From assembly GCA_011109175.1 (NCBI GenBank), contig RDEW01000005.1, positions 186,001 through 250,000 on the forward strand: a DNA stretch of 64,000 nucleotides, read 5' to 3'. Below the pieces are notes generated by a model, which saw only the letters and a program-made list of their open reading frames with translations, was not told the DNA's origin and did not search any database. Positions 1,988-64,000 of this stretch are shown piece after piece (the stretch's first letter is position 1; each line of letters begins with the position of its first letter). The stretch comes from Dicyema japonicum (taxonomy: Eukaryota; Dicyemida; Rhombozoa; Dicyemidae). The translations under genes were made by a program, and so were the position numbers.

Positions 1988-2736
1988 TCAGTGAATAAGT
2001 CCGATGGTTTTATCGCACGTTGAAAGGGCAATAAAAAGTTGACCCAGATAGTAAAACAGAATTATAATTTCCGAGGAAAATGAGAAATTCACGATGAATA
2101 AATTGATGGAAAGGAGTACGTCAGAAATTAAAAACAAAAGTCCACCAACACTGCTGGAAAGTACAGTCCAATAATGCAGTCTTTTGAGACTTAGAGGAGC
2201 AAGGGCTCTCCACAGCATTACACAAATCACGAAGGAATACGCATAAATTATCAACTCGATTTTGTGAGACATAATAAAAGAAAAAAACAGCAAATGACTC
2301 CAATAGCGACTCCTGAAATTCATCAAGCATTTACCTATTGAGACCAAAAGGGGGCGGAATCCAAATGCCAGAATATACAAGATATGGCCAATCAAAAAGA
2401 CCCCAACTCCATATTCAAAGAAAACTGGGAAAAGAAGCAATACATCGCCAACACTACCCATAGCCAACCAATACAAATTAATAGGGAATATTTGAGGTTG
2501 ACTTTGAAGCCATTTTTTATCACAAAAAGGATCAAAATGTAGATTGGTAGACATTTAAACACTACTGTAACCCATTTGCTTAAATAGCCGAGAAACTTGA
2601 TGTAGAAACACGAAGATATCGAAAATGGGAGGAGGAATGGTAAAATCGATCTTAACTATAATATGAATACTCTATAATGACTTACAACAACTGAATAATC
2701 GTATTTTTTAACTTTAATAAAGGAATCTATGGCCAT
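1988..2736 (-). CDS. TMEM86: TMEM86/YhhN-family lysoplasmalogenase, three exons, two apparent 1-nt gaps
   Basis: Multi-pass membrane enzyme of the YhhN/TMEM86 family, which hydrolyses the vinyl-ether bond of lysoplasmalogens. Translation shows WVTVVFKCLPIYILILF near the N-terminus, then GSVGDVLLLFP, GHILYILAFGF, MLWRALAP, LLFLISDVLLS and FYYLGQLFIALS. These are the family's conserved blocks in the right order, with the GD and SD aspartates present. I place the start at the ATG at 2736. Exon 1 (2686-2736) joins exon 2 in frame across a 30-nt intron at 2656-2685 (GTAAGT donor). A second intron of 22 nt lies at 2313-2334 (GTAAAT..CAG). The frame needs one missing base near 2455-2475 and one in an A-run near 2260-2265. 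These may be assembly errors or early decay. A 188-codon frame (1988-2554) covers most of the protein without the N-terminus. Confidence 0.8.
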
Positions 2737-20225: not shown

Positions 20226-21039
20226 CTTACGACACACACTAGGCGATTGCATTAGAAAACTGAGACAACCTGAGGCTCCATTTATATAACTTCACAAAAA
20301 AGTCAAGTAGGCTGCCAGGGTATTGTTTACGATCTTCTAATTGCCCAAAAACCTTTTCGTGGCTATAACCAAGAAACCAGTAATCGGGTTTGAATTTTGA
20401 GTTTTTTCATCAAAGATAACATCACAGAAACAAAACTGGTAGACCTCTCATTAGATTCATTTGGATCTTTGCAATTTTGATGAGTTCTAGGCATTAGAAC
20501 CATCAAAACGATACAAAACAAATGTGAACGAACCACGAAGTTACCCCGGTTTCATAACGGTTCTAACGACTTTTTCTCCTTGTGATAAGCGATCCAATGT
20601 GGTTCTGCAGAATCAGTGATCTGCTTCATATGAGTCCTGATGTTTCTCGGCGACTGACTCAAAGATGAACTGTCCACTGAGATGTTCATATTTACTCTTC
20701 TTTAGCGTCTCGACCTTTTCCGGGTTAGTTTCAGTCATAGGAAGGTTGGAGGGAGAGGCTATCCACATAGGTGGGGTCCCAGGCAAGGTAGTTGTTCCGC
20801 CGACTCCAATTAGATAGGAAATCCGGACACCTCAAGTCCCCAAGCAATTCCTCCGTTGATTGCGGTGTGTCTTGGACTCGTTCCAGCACTCCTCCGGCAT
20901 GAAAGAGCGTGAAATTTTTTCGCGTCGACCATTCCTCCACATCTACAGTGATGTAGCATACAAAAATCCATTCCGAGGAGGAAGGAAACCCCAATCCTAG
21001 TCACGTCGTCATTCAATAGTGTCCCAAGTGAGTTGCATG

Positions 21040-22004
21040 GTAATTCTCTGAGATTTTATGAACAAGGGAAGCGTCGGGTCTGGTACATGTTAAATTTCAC
21101 CAGCAAACGAATGATTCTTAAAGTAAAAACCATTCAGGAAAAAATAGAAAAGAAAAAAAGTAAAGATAAATTATTTCGATTTATGGCCAGTCTTCTTATC
21201 GACAAACACATACTCATCCATTTCACCATCGACTGGCATGACAAAAAAGTCGTTATTATCAGTGAAATGGGAGTCTGAAGATTCCTCAGGATGTTTTGGG
21301 TCATTTTTTTGAGAAAATCCAGTGTAGGGACCTAAATTATCGAAGGAGGTTAGTAATAGCTCATTCATTGTGACAACACAAAAATCTAATACTTCATCGT
21401 CGAATTTTGGTATTTCTCTATTGGCTAGCATTTTTTCTATAATAATACCACGTGGGCAACCTTGTTGCATAAGAAACTCAAGTTTTGCTAGATAGTCTGC
21501 GTTGTATTCTTTCAGTTTCTGAGAAGATGTACGCAGATAATTGATGTATTTGATAGAATTGCCCAGTATCAGTCTACGTGAAGGCTTGATGTGAGATATT
21601 TCGGAAACCTTATTTTTGTCGGTGGGAAGTAGTTTAAACATTTTTTTGAAACTGGCTGACAAGATTTGTGAATTCTTTCTTTGCCTTGAGTTTTTGACTT
21701 CATTAGCTGTCAAGAATTTATCTTCAGAATTGCTATCGTCCTGGTTTGGGTTTATCATTAAGCTCTAAATTACATCAAATAATATAATGATGCAACCGGT
21801 TCACAAATTATACTATTTTTATCAAATTAATTAAATCTTTTATATTTACTATCAAATACAAAATATTTACAACAAATTAATATTTTCTTTATTTATTTAT
21901 TTATTAACACCAAGCTTAGGTGTAACACAATCTTTGGTGAAGGCTAAAATTAAAAAAATGGCATTATATGACATCTCAATTTCGAAAAATGGCATTTATG
22001 GCAT
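21040..22004. repeat. Inserted copy of the bHLH locus
   Basis: This block matches about 23705-24655 almost base for base. It is flanked by a 17-bp direct repeat, CCCAAGTGAGTTGCATG, at 21023-21039 and 22005-22021. Unit 2 has the same site with a single copy of the 17-mer near 38429, that is, without the insert. Confidence 0.9.
21171..21758 (-). CDS. TAL/SCL-like bHLH transcription factor, copy 1
   Basis: Intact 195-residue frame without introns. Residues about 23-76 form a basic helix-loop-helix: NSRQRKNSQILSASFKKMF (basic region and helix 1), a loop with LLPTDKNK, and RRLILGNSIKYINYL (helix 2). NSR.R and the IP/LPTxxxDK loop resemble TAL1/LYL1-type class II factors, so nuclear DNA binding as a dimer is inferred. 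The C-terminal half is acidic and serine-rich and ends KKTGHKSK. It differs from copy 2 by QGCPRG instead of QGWSRG and TGF instead of SGF. It lies inside the insertion at 21040-22004, which brought about 285 bp upstream and 130 bp downstream, so the promoter may have moved with it. Confidence 0.85.
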   Translation of the reverse strand: MINPNQDDSNSEDKFLTANEVKNSRQRKNSQILSASFKKMFKLLPTDKNKVSEISHIKPSRRLILGNSIKYINYLRTSSQKLKEYNADYLAKLEFLMQQGCPRGIIIEKMLANREIPKFDDEVLDFCVVTMNELLLTSFDNLGPYTGFSQKNDPKHPEESSDSHFTDNNDFFVMPVDGEMDEYVFVDKKTGHKSK

Positions 22005-23594
22005 CCCAAGTGAGTTGCATGCTCTGAGCCAGGCATCACTTACGATATGGATGCAGAAACCAGGCAAGCCAGACGGTGCTGATCAAGCTCAGGATCTTCG
22101 AGCATAAAAGATTATCCCATTCACGTTGTTTAGTAGCGTTCTTCGGGAATCTCACACTCTGTTGCGTCCAGACTTACCGAGCCATGCATACCACTGTTCA
22201 GAGTCTGATCCATTAATGTAGCATGGGATCTGTCGTGTGAGACCACTGGAAGCAAATGTCGAAGATAGAAATTCCGGGAGGACGAGTTCTAGTAGTGAGC
22301 ATATTCCGATTCCTCCATAAGTTCAGTGGGGTATGATTGCTGATGGTGTACAATCAATGCACAAGGAAAAGGGCAGGGAACCAAGGGGGTCGCCTTGTTG
22401 GACTTCAGTTTTGGATTCGATGATGTGTTGTCCGATGATCAGAGTGCATGGGAAACCATATGAGAGTTTCACCATTCTGCTAATTTCCGGGATCCTGGAG
22501 ATGCTAGCTTCTATGATTATATCTCTGCGGATGTCCAGTTTGAATATTATAGCATTCGTGGTGTCTGGCAGACTGGAACCAAAGTTCAGGATTGAGTGAT
22601 TACTGCCTCGTAGCCATGATGAATTCCAACCCCAAGTTGAGTAGGGTTCAGTTGGGGCTTAGAGTCTCGCTCGCTGCTCTGGCAGCAATTTTCGCCGTCA
22701 GGCGCTGAATACGTTGCTTGGTCCATTAAAAGGTTTTCTGAAGACGATCAGTTCGGATGCAAAAAGGAGTTCTCTGGCAAAGTCGGAGATATCAGACCGA
22801 AAATGCGGTCTGTAAGGGTCTTTATTCAATTAATGAAAAATTTCCCCATATCAGCGGTTGTGGCAGGAGTAAAGTCTTTCATATGGCTCGGACGTAGGCC
22901 ATTCAAGCCAGCACTGCAGTTTCCTGGGGAGGATGAAATAGCAGATCTTATATCACTTGTGGTGGTTACCAAATGTGGAATGTCCTTCCTAATTTTAGTC
23001 TCGTGTAGATGCGACGGGGCGGATGGTGTTTTTAGACGGTAAGCTCGGGTTTTCGTTAGTTGGTAAAAGAACCTTGTCGTTGTTGGAGAGCGAGTCCAGG
23101 GTTCCCGAATGTCCCGACTATGATATTCTTATTCACTTTTTGTGTAGATCCCATTTGTCTTTCTTGATCATGGATGATGGATGTGAATGATCAGCGATTG
23201 GCAGCTGTTAGACACGCCGACCTTGGGATCCTGAGTGAAACAAGCTGGTTCAAACGGCGTAGGCATTCATCCGTGTTAGAGAGGTCCAGGACAAGCCCAG
23301 AGGAGGGATCCTTCAGCCCACTGTGATTCCCAAGACATGAGGGCATGACCACTTTAGCAGAAGTCCTTCTTGTTAGCTTTTAGTACCCAACGTGTCCAAA
23401 ATTTGGGAAATGGGAACATTTTATACCGAATTTCCTCTTGTTTGCTATGGAACAGATAAGACAGAGAAAGACATGTGACAAGTAAAGTTTATTACGTCTA
23501 CTTTCAATTCATTGTCGTTCATTCTGGAAGTGAGGTTTACTATTTTAATCGAGACTCGAAAAGCGTCCCACTAGAACAACATTAGTTAATTGGT

Positions 23595-23720
23595 GGTTGA
23601 AGTGGTGACGCACTTCTATTGACCAGAATGCCTATTCGGCTTTTGGTGGATAAAAGAATTTATTTTTATGAGCATGGATAAAGTGATGTGGTCAGGATAC
23701 ATTAGATTTTATCAACAAGG
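23595..23720 (+). repeat. A-box-like repeat head next to bHLH 3' flank
   Basis: TGGTTGAAGTGGTGACGCAC and TTTTGGTGGATAAAAG resemble the third SINE family. The same head sits at the 3' side of the bHLH genes at 27737, 40210 and 44205. Confidence 0.35.
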
Positions 23721-23820
23721 GAAGCGTCTGGTACATGGTTTAAATTTCACCAGCAAACGAATGATTCTTAAAGTAAAAACCATTCAGGAAAAAATAGAAA
23801 AGAAAAAAAGTAAAGATAAA

Positions 23821-24408
23821 TTATTTCGATTTATGGCCAGTCTTCTTATCGACAAACACATACTCATCCATTTCACCATCGACTGGCATGACAAAAAAGT
23901 CGTTATTATCAGTGAAATGGGAGTCTGAAGATTCCTCAGGATGTTTTGGGTCATTTTTTTGAGAAAATCCACTGTAGGGACCTAAATTATCGAAGGAGGT
24001 TAGTAATAGCTCATTCATTGTGACAACACAAAAATCTAATACTTCATCGTCGAATTTTGGTATTTCTCTATTGGCTAGCATTTTTTCTATAATAATACCA
24101 CGTGACCAACCTTGTTGCATAAGAAACTCAAGTTTTGCTAGATAGTCTGCGTTGTATTCTTTCAGTTTCTGAGAAGATGTACGCAGATAATTGATGTATT
24201 TGATAGAATTGCCCAGTATCAGTCTACGTGAAGGCTTGATGTGAGATATTTCGGAAACCTTATTTTTGTCGGTGGGAAGTAGTTTAAACATTTTTTTGAA
24301 ACTGGCTGACAAGATTTGTGAATTCTTTCTTTGCCTTGAGTTTTTGACTTCATTAGCTGTCAAGAATTTATCTTCAGAATTGCTATCGTCCTGGTTTGGG
24401 TTTATCAT
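23821..24408 (-). CDS. TAL/SCL-like bHLH transcription factor, copy 2 (likely source copy)
   Basis: Intact 195-residue frame with the same domain layout as at 21171: bHLH at about residues 23-76, then an acidic tail. It lies at the ancestral position, because the matching site in unit 2 (40210-40797) also has a gene there, whereas the 21171 site does not. Upstream is AT-rich with GTATAATTTGTG about 60 bp before the ATG, a possible core promoter. The three full copies keep the frame open while their surroundings decay, which suggests selection on the protein or very recent copying. Confidence 0.88.
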   Translation of the reverse strand: MINPNQDDSNSEDKFLTANEVKNSRQRKNSQILSASFKKMFKLLPTDKNKVSEISHIKPSRRLILGNSIKYINYLRTSSQKLKEYNADYLAKLEFLMQQGWSRGIIIEKMLANREIPKFDDEVLDFCVVTMNELLLTSFDNLGPYSGFSQKNDPKHPEESSDSHFTDNNDFFVMPVDGEMDEYVFVDKKTGHKSK

Positions 24409-24829
24409 TAAGCTCTAAATTACATCAAATAATATAATGATGCAACCGGTTCACAAATTATACTATTTTTTATCAAATTAATTAAATCTTTATATTTACT
24501 AACAAATACAAAATATTTACAACAAAGTAATGTTTTCTTTATTTATTTATTTATTAACACCAAGCTTAGGTGTAACACAATCTTTGGTGTAAGGCTAAAA
24601 TTAAAAAAATGGCATTATATGACATCTCAATTTCGAAAAATGGCATTTATGGCATCTAAAAATGAATTACCTTTTTCCATCCAACATTGTCGGGAGCGCG
24701 ATAGACACACTGTATGCCATGGAAAAAACAATGAGGGCAAAGGTGAAAAAAATAAGAAGCGCTACGCGATCAATTCACGTTCTACCTCATTGTTGTTGAG
24801 ACAACTGGAGGAATAAATGGAAGTAACTA

Positions 24830-24965
24830 AAGAAACTTGGAAGCCTAGCTACACTAAAAAGCCACGACGCACGTAATACTGGTGGCTTCTCCGATTGACC
24901 TCTGTTGCGATCCCGAGAGGCAACTGAAATCGATTATGTTTTCGGGGACCACTTTTGATTGATTT
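24830..24965 (+). repeat. Dispersed repeat family W
   Basis: Same blocks as at 7425 (CTACACTAAAAAGCCACGAC, GAGAGGCAAC). Confidence 0.5.
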
Positions 24966-25439
24966 ATTTTTGTGTTTTATTGATTACAAATTATAAAACT
25001 ATTATGTAATTTTTAAAATTATATTTATGAAAATTTTTCTCTTTCTCGAGATTTTTGAGCGTTTCGTGTAATTTTGTAAATCAATAGTGCAAGTTATAGT
25101 ATAATTAGATAAACCTTGATAGAGAAAATTATTTTATTTTTAACTGCAAAAACACTTGAACGACTACTAGTTCCTTTCATTCGGAATTGAAAACCCAACT
25201 ATATAAGCCAACTCCATTTTTTAGGCAATACGATACGGATCAACGTGGTCAGTGATCTACTTCCATGGTAAACAAACATATTCTTCAATATGTTGGCACC
25301 AGTACGAAAAAGTTTATCAGGCTGATCGCGCAGTTTGCAGGACTGCAGAAGATAGATCCTAGAATAACACGAAGCTTTTATGTGCTTCCGATAATTAAAA
25401 AGAATTAGACTCAGAAATTCAAAAGCCACAATTAACAAT

Positions 25440-25515
25440 AAAATTTCAAAAATATATTTTTTACCTCTTCTAACTCGGAAATCACTCCCACGTGCTCCCA
25501 AGAATGATTTGACGG
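25440..25515. repeat. Half-end of the inverted-repeat element
   Basis: TTTTACCTCTTCTAACTCGG and CCCACGTGCTCCCAAGAATG resemble the terminal blocks of the element at 18396-19346. The unit-2 copy is near 41830-41900. Confidence 0.4.
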
Positions 25516-25618
25516 CAGAAAAACAAGTTAAGTTTCATTTTATTTAATGATTTGATCATTTTTAAGTCGGAGAAATAGAATTATGCAGTTGGGATACACT
25601 AAGCATTAATAATTTTAG

Positions 25619-25822
25619 ATGATAAAGACATTTTTCGCAATAAAAGTACATCACTGCTCAATCTTTGCAGTACTGAATCTGCCACTGCAAAGCTCCGCCA
25701 AGTATGGCCAACCATTCCAGGCATTCGAGATAGCCTGCTACGTACCTGAAGGACTACCTGCCTCGCCCATCTGCCACAACGCTCTCGGATATGGCAAGAA
25801 TTACATTCATACCATCAGGTAA
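25619..25822 (+). CDS. Unrecognised 67-codon frame, richer in G+C than its surroundings
   Basis: The frame runs MIKTFFAIKVHH to GYGKNYIHTIR. No family recognised. The frame is kept open in the unit-2 copy except for its first codon, where ATG is changed (AGAAGATAAAG, near 41998). The copies differ at a few codons, for example PEG against PAG. It ends 124 bp before the RPB6 start and could be a neighbouring small gene, part of the RPB6 5' region, or chance. An AG|GTAACG junction at its end could be a splice donor. Confidence 0.25.
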   Translation: MIKTFFAIKVHHCSIFAVLNLPLQSSAKYGQPFQAFEIACYVPEGLPASPICHNALGYGKNYIHTIR

Positions 25823-25946
25823 CGCAAGTGACCCTTCTTCTTTTTTCCTTTCAACGTTTTTGCCAACTCGAGAGAGTTTTAACGGCACCGAATTTGAAAG
25901 CACGTTGCATGTTTTTTTGTTTGTTAAATAAAGTGGGCTTGTTGTA

Positions 25947-26410
25947 ATGAGTAATCTTTTTGACGAGGATGAGTATTCATTGACTTAAAATTATTAGTTT
26001 TGATGACGAGGATAACGATTTGATCGAAGATGACATGGAAATTGAAAAGACCATTGACATCGATGCTACCCAGGACGTCGAACTACTAGAAGATAACAAA
26101 GACAGGGCAGTCCCTAGTATGCAGAGAACCACTACGCCATTCATGACAAAATAAGAGCTTGCTCGTATTTTTGGGACACGTGCACAACAAATAGCGTACT
26201 TAATCATCATTGTAACTTAGAATGTGTGCCCCAATCCTGAGTGAAATTGGATCTGAGCTCGACCCGATTAAGATTGCCATTAAAGAGCTCAAGTAATATT
26301 ACTGCCTTTAATAAAGGGAAAAGAAGATCCCTTTGATTGTAAGAAGATATTTACCAGACGGCAGTTATGAGGATTGGCCATGTGACCAGTTGATTGTCAC
26401 TGACATTTAA
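25947..26410 (+). pseudogene. POLR2F: RNA polymerase subunit RPB6, unit-1 copy, nonsense codon
   Basis: RPB6 is a small subunit shared by RNA polymerases I, II and III. Four exons: 25947-25972, 25998-26195, 26221-26292 and 26317-26410, with introns of 25, 25 and 24 nt, all GT..AG. Joined, they give 130 codons in frame: an acidic N-terminus (DEDDFDDEDNDLIEDD), [44 protein letters not shown] and [16 protein letters not shown]. This is the whole conserved protein. Codon 61, a tyrosine in the family and in the unit-2 copy, is TAA here (26152-26154). The next arginine is leucine. Unless the base call is wrong, this copy is dead. Splice sites are intact. Confidence 0.85.
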
Positions 26411-26439
26411 TGTTTTTTTAATCATAAATTTTGTATGAT

Positions 26440-27080
26440 TATCTTTATGTGTAACTTACATGACTTGGTGGTGTCCTTGGTACTTCTGGTTGTGGAGGTG
26501 GAGTCCCACCGTCTCAATTATTCCTATTTGTTAGTTGTCTTGTAATGACCCCGGATATATCCGAGATTAGTTTATTTAGTTCCCCTAATCTGAGTGGGAT
26601 GTATTTTTTCCCAGAATCAAATCCTTTTCAGGTATCCATCATTATTGGGACTCCTCTACTGGTGTAAGGAAGAAGGGGATTATTGAATGTCGTCCATGCA
26701 CTGGGGTTCTCCTGAGTTAGTGGATCCTATGACTCTTCTAGGAATAGAAGGTAAAGAACATAATATCCTTTGACCAAGTATGTAGCAGTGTGGGAATCGA
26801 AAACAGTTAAATGCGATCGACAGAATAGCCACTACGTGGTCTTTCAAGTTGTTTCTTCTGATAATTTGTCAATTTTCTGTTCTTCAGAAATAGTAGTTAC
26901 CGAAGAGAAAAATTCCATAAGATTGATTAACCAGTCTGAGAATATTGAGGCATTTGGACCAAACATCCTGAATTGTGTCTCTATTTACAATTTTATAAGC
27001 TCCAGCTTTGGTAGATGCGGGTTTTCGCTTCCCAACTGGTCACTATCCAACGCGAAACTAAAAACCAACAGCTAACAACT
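26440..27080 (-). other. Possible split gene, unrecognised
   Basis: Several open stretches on the minus strand look protein-like: MFGPNASIFSDWLINLMEFF at about 26960, a stretch with QENPSAWTTFNNPLLPY near 26680, KKYIPLRLGELNKLISDIS near 26580 and a proline-rich piece (TPPPQPEVPRTPPSH) near 26490. I could not join them with convincing GT..AG introns. The order is the same in unit 2 (42820-43430). It may be a host gene with micro-introns plus decay. The plus-strand 101-codon frame here is probably its shadow. Confidence 0.3.
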
Positions 27081-27084
27081 GCTG

Positions 27085-27510
27085 CCTGATCTCATAATTT
27101 AGAAAGCATTTCCCCTTACGATTTGCATGGAAATGCGCTCAATGAGTCAACTCCTCTATCGTTTTTCTTTTTCGCGATGAGTGAACCTATCTTGTTTAGC
27201 AGCGTCAGTGACCTGCTTTCAATTATTCCTGTAGTTTCGATTGCCACTGGTTCGAAAATGAATTGTTCTCCAAAAGATGCGTATTTTTATCTTTAGGGCC
27301 TCTGCCTTTTCTGCAGCTTAGCCTGGATCATTTGCTGTCGTTGAGAGGTTGGAGGAGAGAGACTATCGACACAGGTAGTGTCCCTGGCAAGGTCTTTAGC
27401 ACTCTCCCATGGGAAGAAAATGGTTCTGTCCGGGTTGGCTTGAACAAGTCCAAGAGGCTCCAATTGGACAGGAAATCCGCAGTCTCAAGTCCCCACCAAT
27501 AACTCCATTG
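27085..27510 (-). mobile_element. R2-like nuclease tail fragment
   Basis: Minus-strand reading: CGFPVQLEPLGLVQANPDRT, TTCVDSLSPPTS and FIFEPVAIETTGIIES. This is the part after the Cys-His cluster in the R2-like tail. The unit-2 copy is at 43525-43985. Confidence 0.55.
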
Positions 27511-27736
27511 ATTCTGGATACCTGAAGTGGTAACCTACGATTATTGACCTGAATAGCTAGTCAGCTTTTGGTGGATAAAAGCCCTAATTCTTTGTGAGCA
27601 TGGATAAGGTGAAGTGGTACATTAGATTTTATAAAGGGAAGCGTCGGATGCACGTATGTTTAAATTCCACCATCAAAAGAATGATTCTTAAAGTAAAAAG
27701 GCCATTCAGAGAAAAAATAGAAAAAGTAAATATAAA

Positions 27737-28080
27737 TTATTTCGATTTATGTCCAGTCTTCTTATCGAAAAACACATACTCATCCTTATCACCATCGATT
27801 GACCTGACAAACAAGTTGTCATTATCACTGGTATGGGAGTCAGAAGATTCCTCAGCATGTGTTGGGTTATTTTCAGAAAATCCAGTGTAGGGATCAAATT
27901 TATCTAATGAGATTTTCGACAGATCATTCATTATGTAAACACAGAGATCTAATACATTTTGTTCGAATTCGGATATTTCTCTATTGGCTAGCATTTTTTC
28001 TATAATAATAATACCACGTGACCAACCTTGATGCATAAGAAACTCAAGTTTTGGTTGATAGTCTGCATAGTTTTGGTTGA
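27737..28080 (-). pseudogene. bHLH paralogue cut by the duplication junction
   Basis: Only the C-terminal half remains: GWSRGIIIIEKMLANREIS to KKTGHKSK, about 99 codons. The bHLH domain is missing, because the sequence switches at about 28065-28088 to the start of unit 2. The full-length equivalent is at 44205-44791. This copy has the correct frame where that one has lost a base. Confidence 0.85.
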
Positions 28081-30574: not shown

Positions 30575-33065
30575 GAATTAATCACAAGAGGAAATTGGAC
30601 CGTTGGAACAATTCCATCACAAAAATTAACCACCGAACAAAAACTAAAAAATTTTTGGGGCACATTACGTGGAATTCAGTCGAAACAAAATAGAATGGAG
30701 ACAACCCACGGTAATTGTAGCCTTGCGTTATGTGGTCCACCAATTCAAAAAATTCAAAAGGATATGGCAACGCCAGAGGGCTTCTAATATCCTCCGAAAA
30801 GGACCATTAGACCCTTTCCCCAGGGGTCATTATCGACCCCCGGAGATGTGTTTCAAGAAAGTCCAAACATTCCCGACGAAAACCCTCAGCCCACTAGGGA
30901 GAAAAGAAATTTACTGCTCTCCAATTACACATCAACGGAATTACAGGAAAGGTCAGGGAACTCCGTTCAATCCTGGCAAATCAGAAGATCGACGTGGCCA
31001 TTATTCAAGAAACTAAACTCCTCATGCATGATTCCACTCCTTCATTCCCTGGATACGAGGCAATTAGGATAAACCGTAAAAAGAGAAGAGGGGTGGACTA
31101 CTTACTCTATTCAAAAAAACCTGAAATGCAAGACATTACTCCGGAAGTGAGGAAACTTGTTGGAAATGACGAGGTTACTGAGGCAATTGGCATTTCGCTT
31201 AGGACAACGAAAGGAAGTATGTGCCTCGTGAATATCTACTTGCCTCCTCCCAGCTCCTGCCCAAAGACTATGTTATTCCAAACCTATCAAGATTGTCTAT
31301 CTACGATAAGATCATCATATGTGGAGATTTAAACGCAAAGCACACATTATGGTTGTCAAAACAGGCCGACACGAGAGGGAAGCTATTGTTATTGAAATCG
31401 GACTCCCTAACGATACTAAACGATCCATACAAGGACCCCACTCAGAGAGACGGATCAGCTTACCTCATCGGATGTAACACTTCTATCGTCGTTTCATCAA
31501 AAATTGATTGGTCAGTCCTCTACGAAACAAAAAGCGACCATAATCCAATTGTGATGAAGGTCATGAGAGAAGTCAGAGTGAGGAGAACACCTGCTAGTTA
31601 TAACTACAAAGCTGCTAATTGGGAATTGTATCGCGCAATCTCTGATGAAGACTGAAGAATTGTTACTTGGTCAGCTTCAAATCGCTAGAAAAAGCGATCA
31701 AATACTTTACTTGCACAATCCTAGAAGCAAGATCATTGGCTATTCCCAAGCATCGTCTAAACTCCTCTAATGGTCGAGAGAAGTCGGCATTGATCAAAGA
31801 AAGAAATCACCTCAAAAAAATCTAATTGGATCACATCAAAAACGATAACATTCCAGTAGTGTTATTGAGAACCTTGGAGAAATTCGAGTCGGTTTTCTAA
31901 CGTCGGTGTATAACTATTCAATTAATTGTAATGTAATACCGTTGTTATGGAAACAAGCCAACATCCGACCTATACTGAAACCTGGAAACCTAAGGAAGAT
32001 CCGGCATCATTTAGACCTGTGTCATTGTTATGTTCCATATCGAAAATCCTGGAAAGACTTGTGCTTGGGAGAATCAAGGATTTCTTAACAGAAAAAGATT
32101 TTCAACACGGATTCAAGAGCGATTGTTCTACATCAACGTACCTACAGAAATTAACCAACTTCATTAGAGATGGTTTTCAAACAAACCAAGGCATTTGAAA
32201 CAGTCTTATGTTCCATTGATATTAACAAGGCCTTTGATTCTATTTCGAGAAAAATATTATCAAAGAAAATTTTCCAGTCCGAGATCCCGGGGAAGCTTAA
32301 ACTTTGGATAACAAATTTCTTAAGTGGACGAAGGGCACGTGTATGCCTCGGAGGACTGAAATCAGTCTCACGTCTTCTCCCAAACGGTGTCCCCCAAGGA
32401 TCTCCTTTATCCTCCTGCCTTATTCAATTTATACCTGGCAGACCTCCCGACACCGGAATCCAATAACGATGTTCTACTCACATATGCGGACGACATTGTT
32501 TTGGCCTCGCGTGATCGGGATATCCAAAATGCTACAGAAAGATTACAAATTAACCTGGACCGACTCAACACCTGGGTAATGAAGAACCGACTCACGATAA
32601 ATTCCAGAAAGTCGGTCACGTCTATGTTTACTTCGGACAAAAGGTTGGGGAAGATGACTGTCAAGTTAAAATTAAACAACGTTGAATTTTCCCTCAGGAA
32701 ATGTCAGAAGATCTTGGGGGTGACATTGGATACGCACTTATGTTTGTCACCACACGTGGCAAACATTGCTCTAAAGTGCGAGAAAAGGATCAATGTATTA
32801 AAATGTTTATCTGTAATATAGAGGACAAATACCCACCCGGTCAATATTAACATTTACAAAATACATCGAACCATGCTTCTCGTACGCGTGTGCTTCGTGG
32901 AGACCTTCATTATCATGGACGAACACTAAGAAAATCGAGGACGTTTAAAAGAAGGATTTCAGAATGACGGAGCGGTAATCTTGTGGGAGACACAGAACCG
33001 GACCGACTACTCTGGAGGCCCTCATTAAACAAAACTCCGGCATGCGGGAAGGTGGCCCTGCAAAA
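30575..33065 (+). mobile_element. Jockey/I-like LINE B, unit-2 copy with internal deletion
   Basis: Endonuclease VAIIQETKL (about 30990), GDLNAKHTLW and SDHNPIVMK; RT INIACAF-region as CSIDINKAFDSI, YADDIVLAS (about 32480) and KILGVTLDTHL. About 355 bp between the endonuclease and RT are missing compared with unit 1 (10531-10885). Note that SDHNP is intact here but damaged in unit 1. Multiple frameshifts; dead. Confidence 0.8.
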
Positions 33066-37625: not shown

Positions 37626-38099
37626 ATCATGGATGAGCTTACAACACGACACTAAGCGATTGCATTTGAAAACTGAAGACAACCTGGCTCCATTTATAAA
37701 CCTCACAAAAAAGTCAAGTAAGCTGCCAGGTATTGTTTACGATCTTCTAATTGCCCAAGACCTTTTCGTGGCTATAACCAAGAAACCAGTAATCGGGTTT
37801 GAATTTTGAGTTTTTTCATCAAAGATAACATCACAGAAACAAAACTGGTAGACCTCTCATTAGATTCATTTGGATCTTTGCAATTTTGATGAGTTCTAGG
37901 TATTAGAGCCATCAAACGATACAAAACAAATGTGAACGAAGCACAAAGTTACCCCGGTTTCATAACGGTTCTAACGACTTTTTCTCCTTGTGATAAGCGA
38001 TCCAATGTGGTTCTGCAGAATCAGTGATCTGCTTCATATGAGTCCTGATGTTTCTCGGCGACTGACTCAAAGATGAACTGTCCACTGAGATGTTCATAT

Positions 38100-39480
38100 T
38101 TACTCTTCTTTAGCGTCTCGACCTTTTCCGGGTTAATTTCAGTCATAGGAAAATTGGAGGGAGAGGCTATCCACATAGGTGGGGTCCCAGGCAAGGTAGT
38201 TGTTCCGCCGACTCCAATTAGATAGGAAATCCGGACACCTCAAGTCCCCAAGCAAATCCTCCGTTGATTGCGGTGTGTCTTGGACTCCTTCCAGCACTCC
38301 TCCGACATGAAAGAGCGTGAAAACCTTTCGCGTCGACCATTCCTCCACATCTACAGTGATGTATCATGCAAAAATCCATTCCGAGGAGGAAAGAAACCCA
38401 ATCCTAGTCACGTCGTCATTCAATAGTGTCCCAAGTGAGTTGCATGTAATGCTCTGAGCCAGGCACCACTTACGATATGGATGCAAAAACCAGGCAAGCC
38501 AGACGATGCTGGTCAAGCTCAGGATCTTCGAGCATAAAAGATTATCCCATTCACGTTGGTTAGTAGCGTTCTTCGGGAATCTCACACTCTGTGCCTCCAG
38601 ACTTACCAAACCATGCATACCACTGTTCAGAGTCTGATCCATTAATGTAGCATGGGATCTGTCGTGTGAGACCACTGGAAGCATATGTCGAAGATAGAAA
38701 TTCCGGACGGACGAATTCTAGTAGTGAGCGTATTCCGATTCCTTTATAAGTTCAGTGGGGGTACTGATTGCTGATGCTGCACAATCAATGCACAAGGAAA
38801 AAAGTAGGGAACCAAGGGGGTCTCCTTGTTGGACTTCAGTCTCGGATTCGATGATGTTGTCCGATGATCTGAGTGCATGGAGAACCATATGAGAGTTTCA
38901 CCATTCTGCTAATTTCCGGGATCCTGGAAATGCTAGCTTCTATGATTATATTTCTGCGAATGTCCAGTTTGAATATTATAGCATTCGTGGTGTCTGGCAG
39001 ACTAAAACCAAAGTTCCGGATTGAGTTGATTACTGCCTCGTAGCCATGATGAATTCCAACCCCAAGTTGAGTAGGGTTCAGTTGGGGCTTAGAGTCTTGC
39101 TCGCTGCTCTGGCAGCAATTTTCGCCTTCAGGCGCTTGAATACGTTGCTTTGGTCCACCAAAAGGTTTTCTAAAGACGATCAGTTTGGATGCAAAAAGGA
39201 GTTCTCTGGCAAAGTCGGAATTATCAGCCCGAAGAATGCGTTCTGTAAGGGTCTTTATCCAATTAATGAAAAAGTTCCCCATATCAGCGGTTGTGGCAGG
39301 AGTAAAGTCTTTCATATGGCTCGGACGTAGGCCATTCAAGCCAGCACTGCAGTTTCCTGTGGAGGATGAAATAGCAGATCTTACATCACTTGTGGTGGTT
39401 ACCAAATGTGGAATGTCATTCCTAATTTTAGTTTCGTGTAGATGCGACGGGGCGGATGGGTGTTTTTAGACGGTAAGCTC
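38100..39480 (-). mobile_element. R2-like retroelement with nuclease tail, unit-2 copy
   Basis: The 189-codon frame at 38836-39405 holds VRSAISSSTGNCSAGLNGLR and LNPTQLGVGIHHGYEAV. A following frame has DDVTRIGFLSSSEW, and 38139-38348 gives the tail with WDPTYVDSLSLQ. The site of the bHLH insertion in unit 1 is empty here (38427-38460). Confidence 0.7.
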
Positions 39481-40209
39481 GGGTTTTCGTTAGTTGGTAA
39501 AAGAACCTTGTCGTTGCTGGAGAGCGAGCCCAGTGTTTCCCGAATGTCCCCAACTATGATATTCTTATTACTTTTTGTGTAGATCCCATTTGTCTTTCTT
39601 GATCATACACACCGACCTTGGGATCCTGAGTGAAACAAGCTGGTTCAAACAACGTAGGCATTCATCCGTGTAGAGAGTCCAGGACAAGCCCAGAGGAGGG
39701 ATCCTTCAGCCCACTGTGATTCCCAAGACATGAGGGCATGACCACTTTAGCAGAAGTACTTCTTGTTAGCTTCTAGTACCCAACGTGTCCAAAATTTGGG
39801 AAATAGGAACATTTTATACCGAATTTCCTCTTATTTGCTATGGAACAGATAAGACAGAGAAAAACATGTGGCAAGTAAAGTTTATTACGTCCACTTTCAG
39901 TTCATTGTCGTTCTTTCTGGAAGTGAAGTTCACCATTTTAATCGAGACTCAAAAAGCGTATCACTAGAACAACATTAGTTAATTGGTGGTTGAAGTGGTG
40001 ACGCACTTCTATTGACCAGAATGCCTATTCGGCTTTTGGTGGATAAAAGAATTTATTTTTATGAGCATGGATAAAGGAATGTGGTCAGGATACAGTAGAT
40101 TTTATGAACAAGGGAAGCGGGTCCATGGTTTAAATTCCACAGCAAACGAATGATTCTTAAAGTAAAAACCATTCAGGAAAAAATAGAAAAGAAAAAAAGT
40201 AAAGATAAA

Positions 40210-40797
40210 TTATTTCGATTTATGGCCAGTCTTCTTATCGACAAACACATACTCATCCATTTCACCATCGACTGGCATGACAAAAAAGTCGTTATTATCA
40301 GTGAAATGGGAGTCTGAAGATTCCTCAGGATGTTTTGGGTCATTTTTTTGAGAAAATCCAGTGTAGGGACCTAAATTATCGAAGGAGGTTAGTAATAGCT
40401 CATTCATTGTGACAACACAAAAATCTAATACTTCATCGTCGAATTTTGGTATTTCTCTATTGGCTAGCATTTTTTCTATAATAATACCACGTGACCAACC
40501 TTGATGCATAAGAAACTCAAGTTTTGCTAGATATTCTGCGTTGTATTCTTTCAGTTTCTGAGAAGATGTACGCAGATAATTGATGTATTTGATAGAATTG
40601 CCCAGTATCAGTCTACGTGAAGGCTTGATGTGAGATATTTCGGAAACCTTATTTTTGTCGGTGGGAAGTAGTTTAAACATTTTTTTGAAACTGGCTGACA
40701 AGATTTGTGAATTCTTTCTTTGCCTTGAGTTTTTGACTTCATTAGCTGTCAAGAATTTATCTTCAGAATTGCTATCGTCCTGGTTTGGGTTTATCAT
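40210..40797 (-). CDS. TAL/SCL-like bHLH transcription factor, unit-2 copy
   Basis: Intact 195-residue frame, orthologous by position to the gene at 23821. Same bHLH (residues about 23-76). Differences from it include NAEYLAK for NADYLAK and MHQGWSRG for MQQGWSRG. Flanks on both sides match unit 1 for more than 1 kb, so the regulatory region was duplicated too. Confidence 0.88.
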   Translation of the reverse strand: MINPNQDDSNSEDKFLTANEVKNSRQRKNSQILSASFKKMFKLLPTDKNKVSEISHIKPSRRLILGNSIKYINYLRTSSQKLKEYNAEYLAKLEFLMHQGWSRGIIIEKMLANREIPKFDDEVLDFCVVTMNELLLTSFDNLGPYTGFSQKNDPKHPEESSDSHFTDNNDFFVMPVDGEMDEYVFVDKKTGHKSK

Positions 40798-41215
40798 TAA
40801 GCTCTAAATTACATCAAATAATATAATGATGCAACCGGTTCACCAATTATACTATTTTTATCAAATTAATTAAATCCTTTATATTTACTAACAAATACAA
40901 AATATTTACAACAAAGTAATGTTTTCTTTATTTACTTATTTATTAACACCAAGCTTAGGTGTAACACAATCTTTGGTGTAAGGCTAAAATTAAAAAAAAT
41001 GGCATTATATGACATCTCAATTTCGAAAAATGGCATTTATGGCATCTAAAAATGAATTACCTTTTTCCATCCAACATTGTCGGGAGCGCGGTAGACACAC
41101 TGTATGCCATAAAAAACAATGAGGGCAAAGGTGAAAAAAATAAGAAGCGCTACGCGATCAATTCACGTTCTACCTCATTGTTGTTGAGACAACTGGAGGA
41201 ATAAATGGAAGTAAC

Positions 41216-41340
41216 TAAAGAAACTTGGAAGCCTAGCTACACTAAAAGCCACGACGCACGTAATACTCGGTGGCTTCTCCGATTGACCTCTGTTGCGATC
41301 CCGAGAGGCAACTGAAATCGATTATGTTGACGGGACAACA
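41216..41340 (+). repeat. Dispersed repeat family W, unit-2 copy
   Basis: Matches 24830. Confidence 0.45.
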
Positions 41341-42325
41341 TTTGATTGATTTATTTTTGTGTGTTATTGATTACAAATTATAAAACTATTATGTAATTTT
41401 TAAATTATATTTATGAAAATTTTTCTCTTTCTCGAGATTTTTGAGCGTTTCGTGTAATTTTGTAAGTCAATAGTGCAAGTTATAGTATAATTAGATAAAC
41501 CTTGATAGAGAAAATTATTTTATTTTTAACTACAAAAACATTGAACTAGTTCTTTTCATTCGGAATTGAAAACCAACTATATAAGCCAACTCCATTTTTT
41601 AGGCGATACGATGCGGATCAACGTGGTCAGTGATCTGCTTCCATGATAAACAAACATATTCTTCAATATGCTCGGCACCAGTACGAAAAAGTTTATCAGG
41701 CTGATAGCGCAGCTTGCAGGACTGCAGAAGATAGATCCTAGAATAACACGAAACTTTTATGTGCTTCCGATAATTAAAAAGAATTAGACTCAGAAATTCA
41801 GGAGCCACAATTAACAATAAAATTTCAAAAATATATTTTTTACCTCTTCTAACTCGGAAATCACTCCCACGTGCTCCTAAGCATGATTTGACGGCAGAAA
41901 AACAAGTTACGTTTCATTTTATTTAATGATTCGATCTTTTATAAGTCGGGGAAATAGAATTATGCTGTTGGGATACACTAAGCATTAATAATTTTAGAAG
42001 ATAAAGACATTTTTCGCAATAAAAGTACATCACTGCTCAATCTTTGCAGTACTGAATCTGCCACTGCAGAGCTCCGCCAAGTATGGCCAACCATTCCAGG
42101 CATTCGAGATAGCCTGCTACGTACCTGCAGGACTACCTGCCTCGCCCATCTGCCACAACGCTTTCGGATATGGCAAGAATTACATTCATACCATCAGGTA
42201 ACGCAAGTGACCCTTCTTCTTTTTTCCTTTCAACGTTTTTGCCAACTCGAGAGAGTTTTAACGGCACCGAATTTGAAAGCACGTTGCATGTTTTTTTGTT
42301 TGTTAAATAAAGTGGGCTTGTTGTA

Positions 42326-42789
42326 ATGAGTAATCTTTTTGACGAGGATGAGTATTCATTGACTTAAAATTATTAGTTTTGATGACGAGGATAACGATTT
42401 GATCGAAGATGACATGGAAATTGAAAAGACCATTGACATCGATGCTACCCAGGACGTCGAACTACTAGAAGATAACAAAGACAGGGCAGTCCCTAGTATG
42501 CAGAGAACCACTACGCCATTCATGACAAAATATGAGCGTGCTTGTATTATTGGGACACATGCACAACAAATAGCGTACTTAATCATCATTGTAACTTAAA
42601 ATGTGTGCCCCAATCCTGAGTGAAATTGGATCTGAGATCGACCCGATTAAGATTGCCATTAAAGAGCTCAAGTAATATTACTGCCTTTAATAAAGGGAAA
42701 AGAAGATCTCTTTGATTGTAAGAAGATATTTACCAGACGGCAGTTATGAGGATTGGCCATGTGACCAGTTGATTGTCACTGACATTTAA
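42326..42789 (+). pseudogene. POLR2F: RPB6, unit-2 copy, splice acceptor lost
   Basis: Same exon plan as 25947-26410: exons 42326-42351, 42377-42574, 42600-42671 and 42696-42789. Here the coding sequence has no stop: MTKYERACIIGTHAQQIA keeps the tyrosine at codon 61. The acceptor of intron 2 ends AA (42598-42599) instead of AG, and that intron has no other AG. If it is retained, translation stops within it after about 80 residues and loses [16 protein letters not shown]. Two conserved arginines are changed (to C and H). It could still work if an AA acceptor is tolerated or the base call is wrong. Confidence 0.8.
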
Positions 42790-43524
42790 TGTTTTTTTAA
42801 TCATAAATTTTGTATGATTATCTTTATGTGTAACTTACATGACTTGGTGGTGTCCTTGGTACTTCTGGTTGTGGAGGTGGAGTCCCACCGTCTCAATTAT
42901 TCCTATTTATTAGCTGTCTTTTAATGACCCCGGATATACCCGAGATTAGTTTATTTAGTTCCCCAATCTGAGTGGGATGAATTCTTTCCCAGAATCAAAT
43001 CCTTTTCAGGTATCCATCATTATTGGGACTCCTCTACTGGTGTAAGGAAGAAGGGGATTATTGAATGTCGTCCATGCACTGGGGTTCTTCTGAGTTAGTG
43101 GATCCTATGACTCTTCTAGGAATAGAAGGTAAAGAACATAATATCCTTTGACCAAGTATGTAGCAGTGTGGGAATCGAAAACAGTTAAATGCGATCGACA
43201 GAATAGCCACTACGTGGTCTTTCAAGTTGTTTCTTCTGATAATTTTTCAGAAATAGTAGTTACCGAAGAGAAATTCCATAAGATTGATTAACCAGTCTGA
43301 GAATATTGAGGCATTTGGACCAAACATCCTGAATTGTGTCTCTATTTACAATTTTATAAGCTCCAGCTTTGGTAGATGCGGGCTTTCGCTTCCCAACTGG
43401 TCACTATCCAACGCGAAACTTAAGAAAGCTCAGGATCCCGGGGTTCTAAATAAATAATAGGACTCAGTAAACTCAATATTAAAATTCTGGATACCAATTT
43501 TATTTAAACTAAAAAACTAACAGT

Positions 43525-43985
43525 TAGCAAGTGCTGGCTGCTCTCATAATTGAAAACGCATTTCTCCTGACGATTTGCAAAGAAATGCGCTCAATGAGCC
43601 AGCTCCTTTCTCTCCTATCGTTTTTCTTTTTCGCGATGAACGAGCCGATCCTGCTTAGCAGGGTCAGTGACCTGCTTCCAATGATTCCTGTCGTTTCGAC
43701 TGCTACTGGTTCGAAGGTGAATTGTCCTCCAAGACATGCGTATTTTTTATCTTTATGGTCTCATCCTTCTCCGAAGCAGAGCCTGGGTCAGTTGCTGTAG
43801 TTGAAAGGTTGGATGAGAAAGGTTATCGACACAGGTGGCGTCCTAGGCAAGATATTTACCACTCTCCCATGGGAAAAGAGTGGTACCGTCCGGGTTGGCT
43901 TGAGCGAGTCCAAACGGCTCCAATTGGACAGGAAATCCGCAGTCTCAAGTCCCCACCAATAACTCCATTGATTCTGGATACCTGA
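43525..43985 (-). mobile_element. R2-like nuclease tail fragment, unit-2 copy
   Basis: Matches 27085-27510, with frameshifts. Confidence 0.5.
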
Positions 43986-44204
43986 AGTGGTAACCTACGA
44001 TTATTGACCTGAATAGCTAGTCAGCTTTTGGTGGATAAAAGCCCTAATTCTTTGTGAGCATGGATGAGGTGAGTAGTCAGGATACATTAGATTTTATGAA
44101 CAAGGGAAGCGTCGGATGCACGTATGTTTAAATTCCACCATCAAAAGAATGATTCTTAAAGTAAAAAAGGCCATTCAGAGAAAAAATAGAAAAGTAAAGA
44201 TAAA

Positions 44205-47343: not shown

Positions 47344-48241
47344 ATGTCTCGTGGTTCTGCAGGGTTCGATAGATATATTACTATATTCTCTCCGCAAGGA
47401 AAACTTTATCAAGTGGGTAATAGTCCTTAAAACTAAACATTACAGAATATTCCTTCAAATCCATTTCGAATGCCGGCTGTACGACGATCGCTATGAAAGG
47501 AAAGGACTGTGCAGTGGTAGTGACGCAGAAAAAAGTCCCAGTTTGCCCTTAATTCTCTAATAATGAGGACAAATTAATCGATCCTGATAGCTGGACTAAC
47601 GTTTACCCAATAAACAACAGAGTCGGCTGTGTTATGACAGGAATGGCACGGTTGCTTGGTTCATTAGTATTTTTAGGGGACAGCATGCGAATGGCTTTTC
47701 GTGCTGGACATGAGGCCATCAATTTTCAAATACAAGTATGGGTACGACGTTACGCGGATATCCTCTGCGAAAGAATGGCCAACATCAATCAGGTGTACAC
47801 TCAGTCAGCAAGATGAGACCTCTTGCTTGCTGTATGTCTTATATTTGATTTCAGCAATGATTGTGATTGGTCTCGACGATCAGAATAATCCCCAGGTTTA
47901 TAAGACTGATCCTACTGGATTCTGTTGTGGCTACAATGCCACTGCCTCTGGGACCAAGATGGGGGAGGCCATCCAAGAATTGGAGAAGGTGATTGTAAAG
48001 GAAAGAATATGAACTCTTTGAAGTCCTCCATGTGAGATTGGTGAGTTAATCTCCTAGGTCGTATTGACCTCACTTATTAATGCTGTGGGGACAGCGTTGA
48101 CATGTGATCAGATGGAGATTGCTGTCATTACTAGGCAGGACCCCACTTTTAGGTAGACTTTTGTGTAATTGGTACAGATCCTGGGACTATGATAAAATTG
48201 ATGAAGCACTGACAGAGGCCATAGAAATTGGATATCTTTAA
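47344..48241 (+). CDS. PSMA6: Proteasome subunit alpha type-6, seven exons, six micro-introns, four 1-nt frame breaks
   Basis: Alpha-1-position ring subunit of the 20S proteasome. Exon 1 (47344-47416) gives [20 protein letters not shown] and YQV. After a 29-nt intron (47417-47445) comes [26 protein letters not shown]. Introns 2 and 4-6 are 27 nt (47541-47567), 23 nt (47832-47854), 26 nt (48032-48057) and 25 nt (48153-48177). Intron 3 is either a canonical 18-nt GT..AG at 47659-47676, adding three residues, or a 27-nt GG..AG at 47650-47676 that fits family length exactly. Later exons give [69 protein letters not shown] and DEALTEAIE. The frame needs single-base changes near 47725, 47752, 47810 and 48005. 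With introns present it is not a processed copy. Confidence 0.85.
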
Positions 48242-55909: not shown

Positions 55910-56886
55910 ATGTATTTTATGAAAAAACGTTATTTGACGATCATTGCAGTTCATATTTTTGAAGTTTTAGTTCAGTTGAGCTTAATTATACTCATCCTGT
56001 ATTTCAAGATATTCTCTATCGGTGCTTTGATCGACAGAAACGCCAGCAATTTGATACTAGTCGTGGTAATCTCGGGTAAATTTAATTCATCATTAGACCC
56101 TAAAAATCAGGCGAGAAGACAGGTGATAAGAGAAACGTGGGGAAATAATAAAACTATGAAGACTTTTAAAGCAACGTTAGTATTTTTCATGGGAAATTCT
56201 GAAACTGGACGACCTCCTTATCTGGCTGAGGAATCAAAGCTACACGGAGATCTCATATTCGCGGACTTTTACGAATCTTACCTCAATTTGAGCATCAAGA
56301 GTATTGAAGCTCTCAAGTAGCGTTCAATGATATAATAAGATGGGCTTCATATAACTTTAAGAAATTTGAATATTTCGTTAAAGTTGATGACGACGTCCTC
56401 TTCAACATTGAAGCCTTGACTTTAACGATTTCTCAATTTGGAAGCGACATGAAGCAAAATGGGCGATTTTTGTTCTGTTTTTTGATGAAAAATAATAAAC
56501 CGATAAGGGAGAATTCAAAATGGTAACTTCCAAGTTAAATCCCAAGGATAATTTCCTTTGAAGAGTATCCCTTAGATAGTTATCCCCCATTTTGTTCTGG
56601 CACGTGTTATGTGCTGACAAGACAAACAGTGGATGCTATACTCGAAGTTTGTAAAGATAGAAAATTAATACATTTGGAGGATGTCGCAGTTACAGGTAAA
56701 TATGAAATGAACTCTCAAGGAATTTGTGGCGAAGAAGCACGTGTCCAAAAACATAAAGTCGAAGGATTTATCATTCACCAGGATACCGCGAATATTTGTT
56801 TCAGTAAAAGCGCCATCTCCCATCATCTTCACATAACGCCTGAGAAAATGAGGGACTTTTATTATGAACAAAAAAATTATTGTTGA
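55910..56886 (+). CDS. Beta-1,3-galactosyltransferase-family (GT31) enzyme, three exons, 309 aa
   Basis: Type II Golgi membrane enzyme that transfers a UDP-sugar in beta-1,3 linkage. Exons 55910-56316, 56340-56522 and 56547-56886 join to exactly 310 codons. Introns are 23 nt (56317-56339) and 24 nt (56523-56546), both GT..AG. Without them the frame stops twice. Motifs in order: N-terminal membrane anchor (LVQLSLIILILYF), ARRQVIRETWGN, FADFYESYLNLSIKS, FVKVDDDVLFN (metal-binding DDD), NSKWIISFEEYPLDSYPPFC with SGTCYVLT, and LEDVAVTGKY (catalytic E/D region). Every family landmark is present and uninterrupted, so this is the best-preserved host gene in the window. Donor and acceptor sugars cannot be read from sequence; GlcNAc-transferase paralogues share these motifs. 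Confidence 0.92.
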
Positions 56887-63489: not shown

Positions 63490-64000
63490 ATGGACAAAAT
63501 TTTAGAATTAGCGAAAATTAATATTACGAAAAATATCGTTCATCTTAGTCATAAAGAGCATAGAGACTTAACTAAGAATTCAAAAGTACGTGTTTTCTCA
63601 ACTCAGGCAAAATTTTACTTCAAAACAGTAACGAAAAATGGACATGTGATCGATGACTACAAGAAAATGAGTAATCAACCATTTGAGATTATAATTGGTA
63701 AACAGTTTCAGTTTGAATATTGGGAGACGTGCATTAAATCTATGCGAGTTGGGGAAATGGCAGAGTTCACGGTCCCATCCCCGGTAGGCAAATTTATTAA
63801 ACTCAGATTTCGATTGGATACGCATTTTTCTCAGCAAACATAAGAAATATCCTTTCTGGAAAAAAGAGGAAGAGGTCTTGTTGTTCGAAAATGTTTGATC
63901 AGTCTACGGGATACGAAGACCTCGACCAACTCAGAGATCACCCACAGGAATTGACTTTTATATTTGGTTCTGGATTATTTTTAAAGTTCAGATTTTGTCG
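63490..64000 (+). CDS. AIP: AIP/XAP2-family FKBP-like co-chaperone, 5' part (runs off the window)
   Basis: Family members bind Hsp90 and client proteins such as the aryl hydrocarbon receptor, in the cytoplasm. Exon 1 (63490-63783) gives KVRVFSTQAKFYFKTV, PFEIIIGKQFQFEYWETCI and MRVGEMAEFTVPSP, the FKBP-like domain start. A 23-nt intron (63784-63806) leads to exon 2 (63807-63966): YAFFSANIRNIL, then CCSKMFDQSTGYEDLDQL and HPQELTFIF, the AIP-specific continuation. A 20-nt intron (63967-63986) leads to exon 3 at the window edge (VQILS). Without the introns the frame ends at 63843. The TPR domain must lie to the right. The start is the first ATG after an AT-rich spacer. Confidence 0.9.

Follow-up and report, generated by a model that had tools for sequence, protein, structure and literature searches.

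Genes and candidate introns in the window

The stretch of DNA analysed here (the window) is 64,000 nucleotides long, corresponds to positions 186001–250000 of contig C137 and has a GC content of 0.34 to 0.42. Among its genes are those for PSMA6 (47344–48241), a GT31 galactosyltransferase, AIP and TMEM86 (YhhN), together with two copies of RPB6. The first-pass annotation had proposed that these unrelated genes are interrupted by introns of 18–30 nt whose removal restores conserved reading frames; the segments concerned are given below in window coordinates, with the basis for each.

47417..47445, plus strand: PSMA6 intron 1, 29 nt, phase 1 (spliced alignment to orthologues)
47541..47567, plus strand: PSMA6 intron 2, 27 nt, phase 0, in-frame stop inside (spliced alignment)
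47650..47676, plus strand: claimed third PSMA6 intron, unsupported and ambiguous, with an 18-nt GT-AG segment (47659–47676) inside it (coordinates by eye)
47832..47854, plus strand: PSMA6 intron, 23 nt, phase 1 (spliced alignment)
48032..48057, plus strand: PSMA6 intron, 26 nt, phase 0 (spliced alignment)
48153..48177, plus strand: last PSMA6 intron, 25 nt (by eye, GT-AG)
56317..56339, plus strand: GT31 galactosyltransferase intron, 23 nt (Galactosyl_T score of the spliced product)
56523..56546, plus strand: GT31 intron, 24 nt (Galactosyl_T score of the spliced product)
63784..63806, plus strand: AIP intron 1, 23 nt (PPIase_AIP match across the junction)
63967..63991, plus strand: AIP intron 2, 25 nt (ab initio and reference-free, using sequence past the window end)
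2656..2685, minus strand: first TMEM86 (YhhN) intron candidate, 30 nt (joins two open frames)
2502..2523, minus strand: 22-nt TMEM86 candidate, frame not restored (trial of GT-AG pairs)
25973..25997, plus strand: RPB6 copy 1, intron 1, 25 nt (same length, diverged sequence in the intact gene L082)
26196..26220, plus strand: RPB6 copy 1, intron 2, 25 nt (same length in L082)
26293..26316, plus strand: RPB6 copy 1, intron 3, 24 nt (same length in L082)
26152..26154, plus strand: RPB6 copy 1, in-frame TAA in place of the conserved Tyr codon, which is TAT in both copy 2 and L082 (copy comparison)
42326..42789, plus strand: RPB6 copy 2, a segmental duplicate in which the 3' AG of intron 2 reads AA (copy comparison)

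The PSMA6 gene was aligned with 15 PSMA6 proteins, without a length prior. Four of the introns proposed for it (29, 27, 23 and 26 nt) were recovered by the aligner and the last, of 25 nt, was read by eye, whilst the third, put at 18 or 27 nt, was not: the aligner read nine in-frame codons in that stretch, and inspection by eye indicated that excising the 18-nt GT-AG segment leaves three surplus residues and that a GT-AG segment of 27 nt fits nowhere there. Nor did intron removal fully restore the frame, as had been claimed, because four frame slips without an intron explanation stayed in the spliced alignment; two of them lie, by eye, at runs of three A. We searched the genome for another PSMA6 match of equal closeness and found none; the other matches look like paralogues. 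Slips of 1–2 nt also occur in other, otherwise conserved genes (loci L074, L011, L021, L024, L026 and L073), PSMA6 being the densest case, and suggest consensus errors or, in PSMA6, decay.

Both GT31 introns were borne out: the first exon by itself matches Galactosyl_T with 50.9 bits (profile 1–71), and once both introns are removed the spliced product gives a single continuous match of 149 bits (profile 1–182). For AIP, excision of the 23-nt segment gave a PPIase_AIP match that spans the junction (26–151 of 155, 56.4 bits). The second AIP intron had been called at 20 nt (63967–63986), a choice that meets a stop six codons on, past the window end, whereas the 25-nt choice made ab initio stays open. 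In TMEM86 the 30-nt segment may well be an intron, as it joins open frames; the 22-nt segment was rejected, and among the GT-AG pairs of 15–69 nt tried in its place only one of 59 nt restores the frame. The four junctions that the first-pass annotation had singled out for checking (56316/56340, 56522/56547, 63783/63807 and 25972/25998) proved exact to the base.

The two RPB6 copies in the window (25947–26410 and 42326–42789) are near-identical, with eight differences, all of which fall inside 177 nt of the 581 compared. Both are damaged and an intact copy exists elsewhere (L082, contig C2), and we therefore do not regard either window copy as a working gene. Removal of 25, 25 and 24 nt from L082 yields a full 129-residue protein (RNA_pol_Rpb6, 43.6 bits). 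Thus, the intron lengths proposed for RPB6 recur unchanged in the intact gene, but the frame of copy 1 is not fully restored by their removal, given its in-frame TAA. A position-by-position comparison of copy 1 with L082, which have introns of equal length, shows differences at 18 of 62 bases of the intron cores and at 41 of 390 exon bases, 32 of the latter at third codon positions; judged from these alignments, the introns look like sequences under length constraint. Two further RPB6 relatives were seen, a truncated one on contig C171 (L083) and a diverged one on C130 (L084).

The RPB6 copies are part of a larger segmental duplication (20506–27583 and 37914–44043) with a spacing of 16.4–17.4 kb (∼16.4 kb for RPB6). 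It also carries minus-strand ORFs of 197 aa that form a family (21171, 23821 and 40210), with shorter, diverged relatives at 27737 and 44417; a Pfam scan of two of the 197-aa members returned no match. LINE-like fragments lie at 9613–12172, 30648–32821 and 16518–17948, with an RVT_1 match in 10719–11357 and the others recognized by eye.

A reference-anchored set of introns

We searched the assembly (64.67 Mb in 191 contigs) and aligned orthologues of Prp8, seven CCT subunits, Pax6 and PSMA6 using a spliced protein-to-DNA aligner that applies a flat intron penalty, has no length preference above ∼6 nt and permits frame slips. The human Prp8 reference letters were taken from PDB alignments. With these orthologous references 84 junctions were called (PSMA6, 4; CCT4, 3; Prp8, 21; Pax6, 6; and 50 in the six subunits CCT1, 2, 3, 5, 7 and 8), of which 78 were kept, all with GT-AG ends. 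Those dropped were a non-canonical 36-nt and a 31-nt segment in Pax6, a non-canonical 48-nt segment in CCT7, a 24-nt segment in CCT2 (GC-AG once shifted by one base) and, as doubtful, a non-canonical 17-nt segment in CCT3 and an 11-nt GT-AG segment adjoining a frame slip in CCT1. In CCT2 (L026), bases 1007–1030 of the reversed locus are a candidate 24-nt GC-AG intron.

The 78 reference-anchored introns formed a narrow population in the 20s of nucleotides, of the kind described for dicyemid micro-introns, with a mean length of 23.62 nt (sd 1.55, median 23, range 20–29) and 68 of the 78 at 22–25 nt. CCT4 contributed introns of 23, 21 and 22 nt by spliced alignment. Against the human reference, the first 500 residues of Prp8 contained five introns of 22–24 nt, and a later stretch that covers 949 of 949 human residues gap-free contained 16 introns of 20–25 nt and one frame slip. 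The near-complete Prp8 gene has 36 introns, 21 of them reference-anchored; an ab initio, amino-acid-level gene finder had called 38, and comparison with human Prp8 identified two of these as false and two as too long, which were corrected. CCT6 and HSP60 were aligned to a paralogue profile only and stand outside the 78. An extended set of 114 introns comprised 46 from orthologues, 32 from close references, 15 ab initio Prp8 introns, 12 from a paralogue profile and nine from the window, read by eye or ab initio; from this set the 22-nt TMEM86 segment was removed, and the second AIP intron was entered at its corrected length; neither had been assigned a phase, which leaves the stop counts below as they are.

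The lower limit of 18 nt claimed for these introns was not supported. The shortest supported intron was 20 nt long (a single, orthologue-anchored case in Prp8), or 23 nt within the window itself. Introns of 17, 18, 40 and 42 nt that had been obtained with a distant paralogue profile resolved to 22–24 nt once orthologous references were used (those of 17 and 18 nt to 23 and 24 nt).

Identity of the host

PAX matches were found at four loci in the genome. For the Pax6-like locus (L074) the top match was Pax6 of Dicyema acuticephalum (E-value 1.6 × 10−104, 368 bits, 68 % identity over 179/262 residues), and the next-best protein among the matches listed scored 330 bits. Aligned to this reference, the paired domain and homeodomain contained introns of 24, 23 and 25 nt in phases 0, 1 and 0. 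In the published D. acuticephalum gene, for which cDNA and genomic DNA were compared, the paired-domain intron a and the homeodomain introns c and d likewise have phases 0, 1 and 0 (PMC2222250). The top match and the shared phases support the dicyemid origin that had been suggested for this DNA, and since Pax6 identity is only 68 % the host is not D. acuticephalum itself. Among the homologues listed for CCT4 or for PSMA6 (at least 120), many of them without a name, none is labelled as a dicyemid. Dicyemids are minute animals that live as parasites in the kidneys of octopus and squid.

Splice junctions and splicing machinery

With splice-site rules switched off, and equivalent shifts allowed, 20 of 33 junctions still fell exactly on GT-AG (Prp8, 12/16; CCT4, 2/5; Pax6, 4/7; PSMA6, 2/5), against 0.33 % of random positions in Prp8 exons. 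GT-AG ends are those of U2-type spliceosomal introns, and this excess upholds the proposal that spliceosomal micro-introns run through unrelated genes of this host.

The machinery found in the genome agrees with such a class, as U1, U2 and Prp8 were all present with canonical recognition sequences. For U2 RNA there were at least 25 matches, at least 22 of them above cut-off; among the matches listed, eight of eight have an unaltered branch-binding sequence. The U1 matches (at least 11) all scored below the Rfam cut-off, the best at 69.0 against 69.5, and seven of eight among the matches listed carried the 5' end ACTTACCTG. A diverged U1 copy (L049; G000 C126:175730-175889) begins with ACTTACTTG, not ACTTACCTG. 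RED_N had one match (64.3 bits). The U2AF65 domains were found in order on contig C114 (profile 168–510), each below the whole-protein cut-off, as would be expected from scoring exons separately. RNAs of the minor spliceosome gave one match each:

G000 C68:163471-163599: U12 snRNA, single match, 85.4 bits
G000 C34:237761-237858: U6atac snRNA, single match, 37 bits (cut-off 33)

These two matches suggest that the dicyemid keeps a minor spliceosome. A literature search for Dicyema with U12 returned one paper (PMC2483917), whose available text does not link the two.

Splice signals and exonic decoys

The signals within the introns were weak. In the extended set the base after GT was A in 59 and T in 40 of 114 introns, and the +5 G that the canonical U1 end favours was present in only 21 of 114. 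Outside Prp8, 40 of 78 introns had A at −7, against a background of 27.5 % (P = 7.6 × 10−6, 11 positions tested); for 21 of these introns the evidence is the paralogue profile, inspection by eye or an ab initio prediction. The corresponding count for Prp8 was marginal (20/36, P = 0.051). A motif count in an overlapping, earlier intron set gave a YTNAY peak at positions −9 to −7 (7, 10 and 10 occurrences, versus ∼3 each in shuffled sequence), and a search of the Prp8 introns for a branch motif found no clear one. The A at −7 suggests a weak branch-point signal.

Composition set the introns apart from their surroundings. Those outside Prp8 had a T fraction of 0.44 and an AT fraction of 0.73, compared with 0.28 and 0.57 in flanking sequence, and the Prp8 introns were 95 % AT. 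At the same time, exons were rich in GT-AG pairs spaced 20–26 nt apart: gene models with 51 introns and 10.96 kb of exon contained 235 such decoys in their exons. They were not specifically depleted relative to synonymous shuffles (z = −0.98; for spacings of 15–19, 27–40 and 41–60 nt z was −2.57, −1.79 and −2.19, respectively), and an overlapping five-gene set contained 207 decoys versus 207.9 expected. As exon decoys are this abundant and not specifically depleted, GT-AG ends plus length cannot by themselves mark an intron, and a contribution from composition or other factors is required.

In-frame stops

A length divisible by three (3n) was found for 26 of the 78 reference-anchored introns, and 23 of these 26 contained an in-frame stop, versus 16.2 expected from shuffling (P = 0.0033). 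In their two non-coding frames these 26 introns had a stop in 15 and 16 cases. Introns of other lengths contained an in-frame stop in 27 of 52 cases, a lower proportion than among 3n introns (Fisher P = 0.0022). Stop-free 3n introns were thus depleted (3/26 versus 9.8 expected), as under Paramecium-like selection, in what is a small sample; within the 32 close-reference introns alone the tendency was not significant (10 of 12 with a stop and 2 of 12 without, P = 0.18). The pattern fits selection against translatable introns. A literature search combining Dicyema, nonsense-mediated and intron found no paper.

Weighing other explanations

The excess of stops could be produced by the alignment itself if stop-free 3n introns were missed and read as inserted codons. 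The in-frame stretch of PSMA6 and the 48-nt loop in CCT7 could hide such introns, and the lack of significance among close-reference introns points the same way. Eight inserted codons, however, cost the aligner more than one intron does, Prp8 is free of insertions over 949 residues, and the excess is confined to the coding frame and does not appear when these introns are read in the two alternative frames. We consider an alignment bias doubtful, if worth keeping in mind, as the source of the pattern.

Doubt about the introns as such carries far less weight. Frame slips do exist in these genes (four in PSMA6, two in Pax6, one in the 949 residues of Prp8 and one each in CCT1, CCT2, CCT5 and CCT7), and the short segments might on that account be artefacts of assembly or sequencing, or indels that compensate one another in a consensus of poor quality. 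Yet the segments share one narrow length, their GT-AG ends far exceed chance, diverged RPB6 copies have them at matching positions and with matching lengths, and in Pax6 their phases are the published, cDNA-verified ones. As an account of the introns as a class this is very improbable and already refuted; for the slips of 1–2 nt it is still a likely one. That the segments are translated unspliced, bypassed by the ribosome or removed by some other route appears more improbable still: the three stop-free 3n introns could be read through, but the other 23 contain stops, the remaining 52 of the 78 shift the frame, and both the GT-AG ends and the matches to U1, U2, Prp8, RED and U2AF65 speak for splicing. 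On the sequence evidence, the micro-introns look like real, ordinary spliceosomal introns squeezed to a near-fixed length.

Proposed recognition and its implications

We propose that each micro-intron would be recognized as one unit, by intron definition. The donor paired with U1 would be a minimal GT[A/T], and the branch site paired with U2 would be poorly conserved, its A lying ∼7–9 nt before the 3' end; for a 23-nt intron with its A at −7, the span from donor to branch would then be ∼16 nt. Introns would stand out from exons in part by being T-rich and AT-rich. Assembly over so short a span may depend on the factors required in human cells when introns are short, of which RED has a match here. 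Introns of length 3n mostly hold a stop, and transcripts that retained them would be caught by translation-dependent decay.

Taken together, we put at roughly 95 % the probability that the DNA is nuclear and belongs to a member of the phylum Dicyemida other than D. acuticephalum, whose protein genes carry U2-type introns that have been compressed to ∼22–25 nt and would be recognized in the proposed manner. The more specific formulation, in which the major spliceosome of a fast-evolving animal lineage would routinely splice introns of a set length of 22–25 nt with a span of ∼16 nt, backed by translation-coupled decay and with the RNAs of the minor spliceosome also present, is one towards which we lean with less assurance; under it, 3n introns would persist chiefly where they contain an in-frame stop.

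The micro-introns are an already known dicyemid trait, in print since 2007. What is added here are 78 reference-anchored introns of ∼23 nt, equal lengths in diverged gene copies, a weak branch signal, the snRNA matches and the in-frame-stop bias. Because the assembly is large and its snRNAs are canonical, it opens to direct test how an animal spliceosome would assemble across ∼16 nt, as against ∼50 in human extracts. The in-frame stop pattern, if true, would extend the translatable-intron rule to the micro-introns of an animal. For annotation, gene finders that use the usual minimum intron lengths would miss or break most genes here.

Comparison with known systems

One close counterpart is D. 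acuticephalum, for which a mean intron length of 26.2 ± 1.9 (n = 16) has been given (PMC2222250). A set of 41 introns of this species has a mean of 24.93 and an sd of 2.51; its 5' score is the weakest on record and, in the available text of that source, there is no branch-point signature (PMC2483917). The introns described here resemble these in being ultra-short and narrowly distributed, in their weak 5' consensus and in the Pax6 phases 0, 1 and 0. They are slightly shorter, at 23.62 (n = 78) versus 24.93 (n = 41; Welch P = 0.0035, although the gene samples differ), and they carry a weak A at −7, whereas the available account of D. acuticephalum reports no branch signature. In Dicyema sp. the median intron is 27 bp and around two thirds are < 30 bp (PMC6543705). 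The D. japonicum genome has been described as 67.5 Mb with 36.7 % GC and 6.2 introns per gene; its published mean intron length is 38.2 bp, versus 23.62 in our 78 reference-anchored introns (PMC6736024).

Of the three lineages that PMC2483917 names as having the shortest introns, only the dicyemids are animals. Paramecium tetraurelia is similar in its median length of 25 nt, its weak signals and its selection against translatable introns (PMC2483917, PMC11334263), a form of selection called universal for intron-rich eukaryotes (PMC11334263). Paramecium shows a deficit of 3n lengths, however, whereas here 3n introns are common (26 of 78) and most of them (23 of 26) hold a stop. Stentor coeruleus has likewise retained its snRNAs whilst its introns shrank (PMC9505925); its introns are shorter still, as are the 18–21 nt introns of the Bigelowiella natans nucleomorph (cited in PMC2222250), and neither is an animal. 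A further contrast is with human extracts, in which ∼50 nt are needed between the 5' splice site and the branch and a distance of 35 nt abolished assembly on one substrate (PMC6692369). The span of ∼16 nt inferred here would be about a third of that human minimum. In human extracts Smu1/RED becomes essential when the donor-to-branch distance is short (PMC6692369), and a RED/IK match is present in this genome too, where the distance to be bridged would be ∼16 nt as opposed to ∼50.
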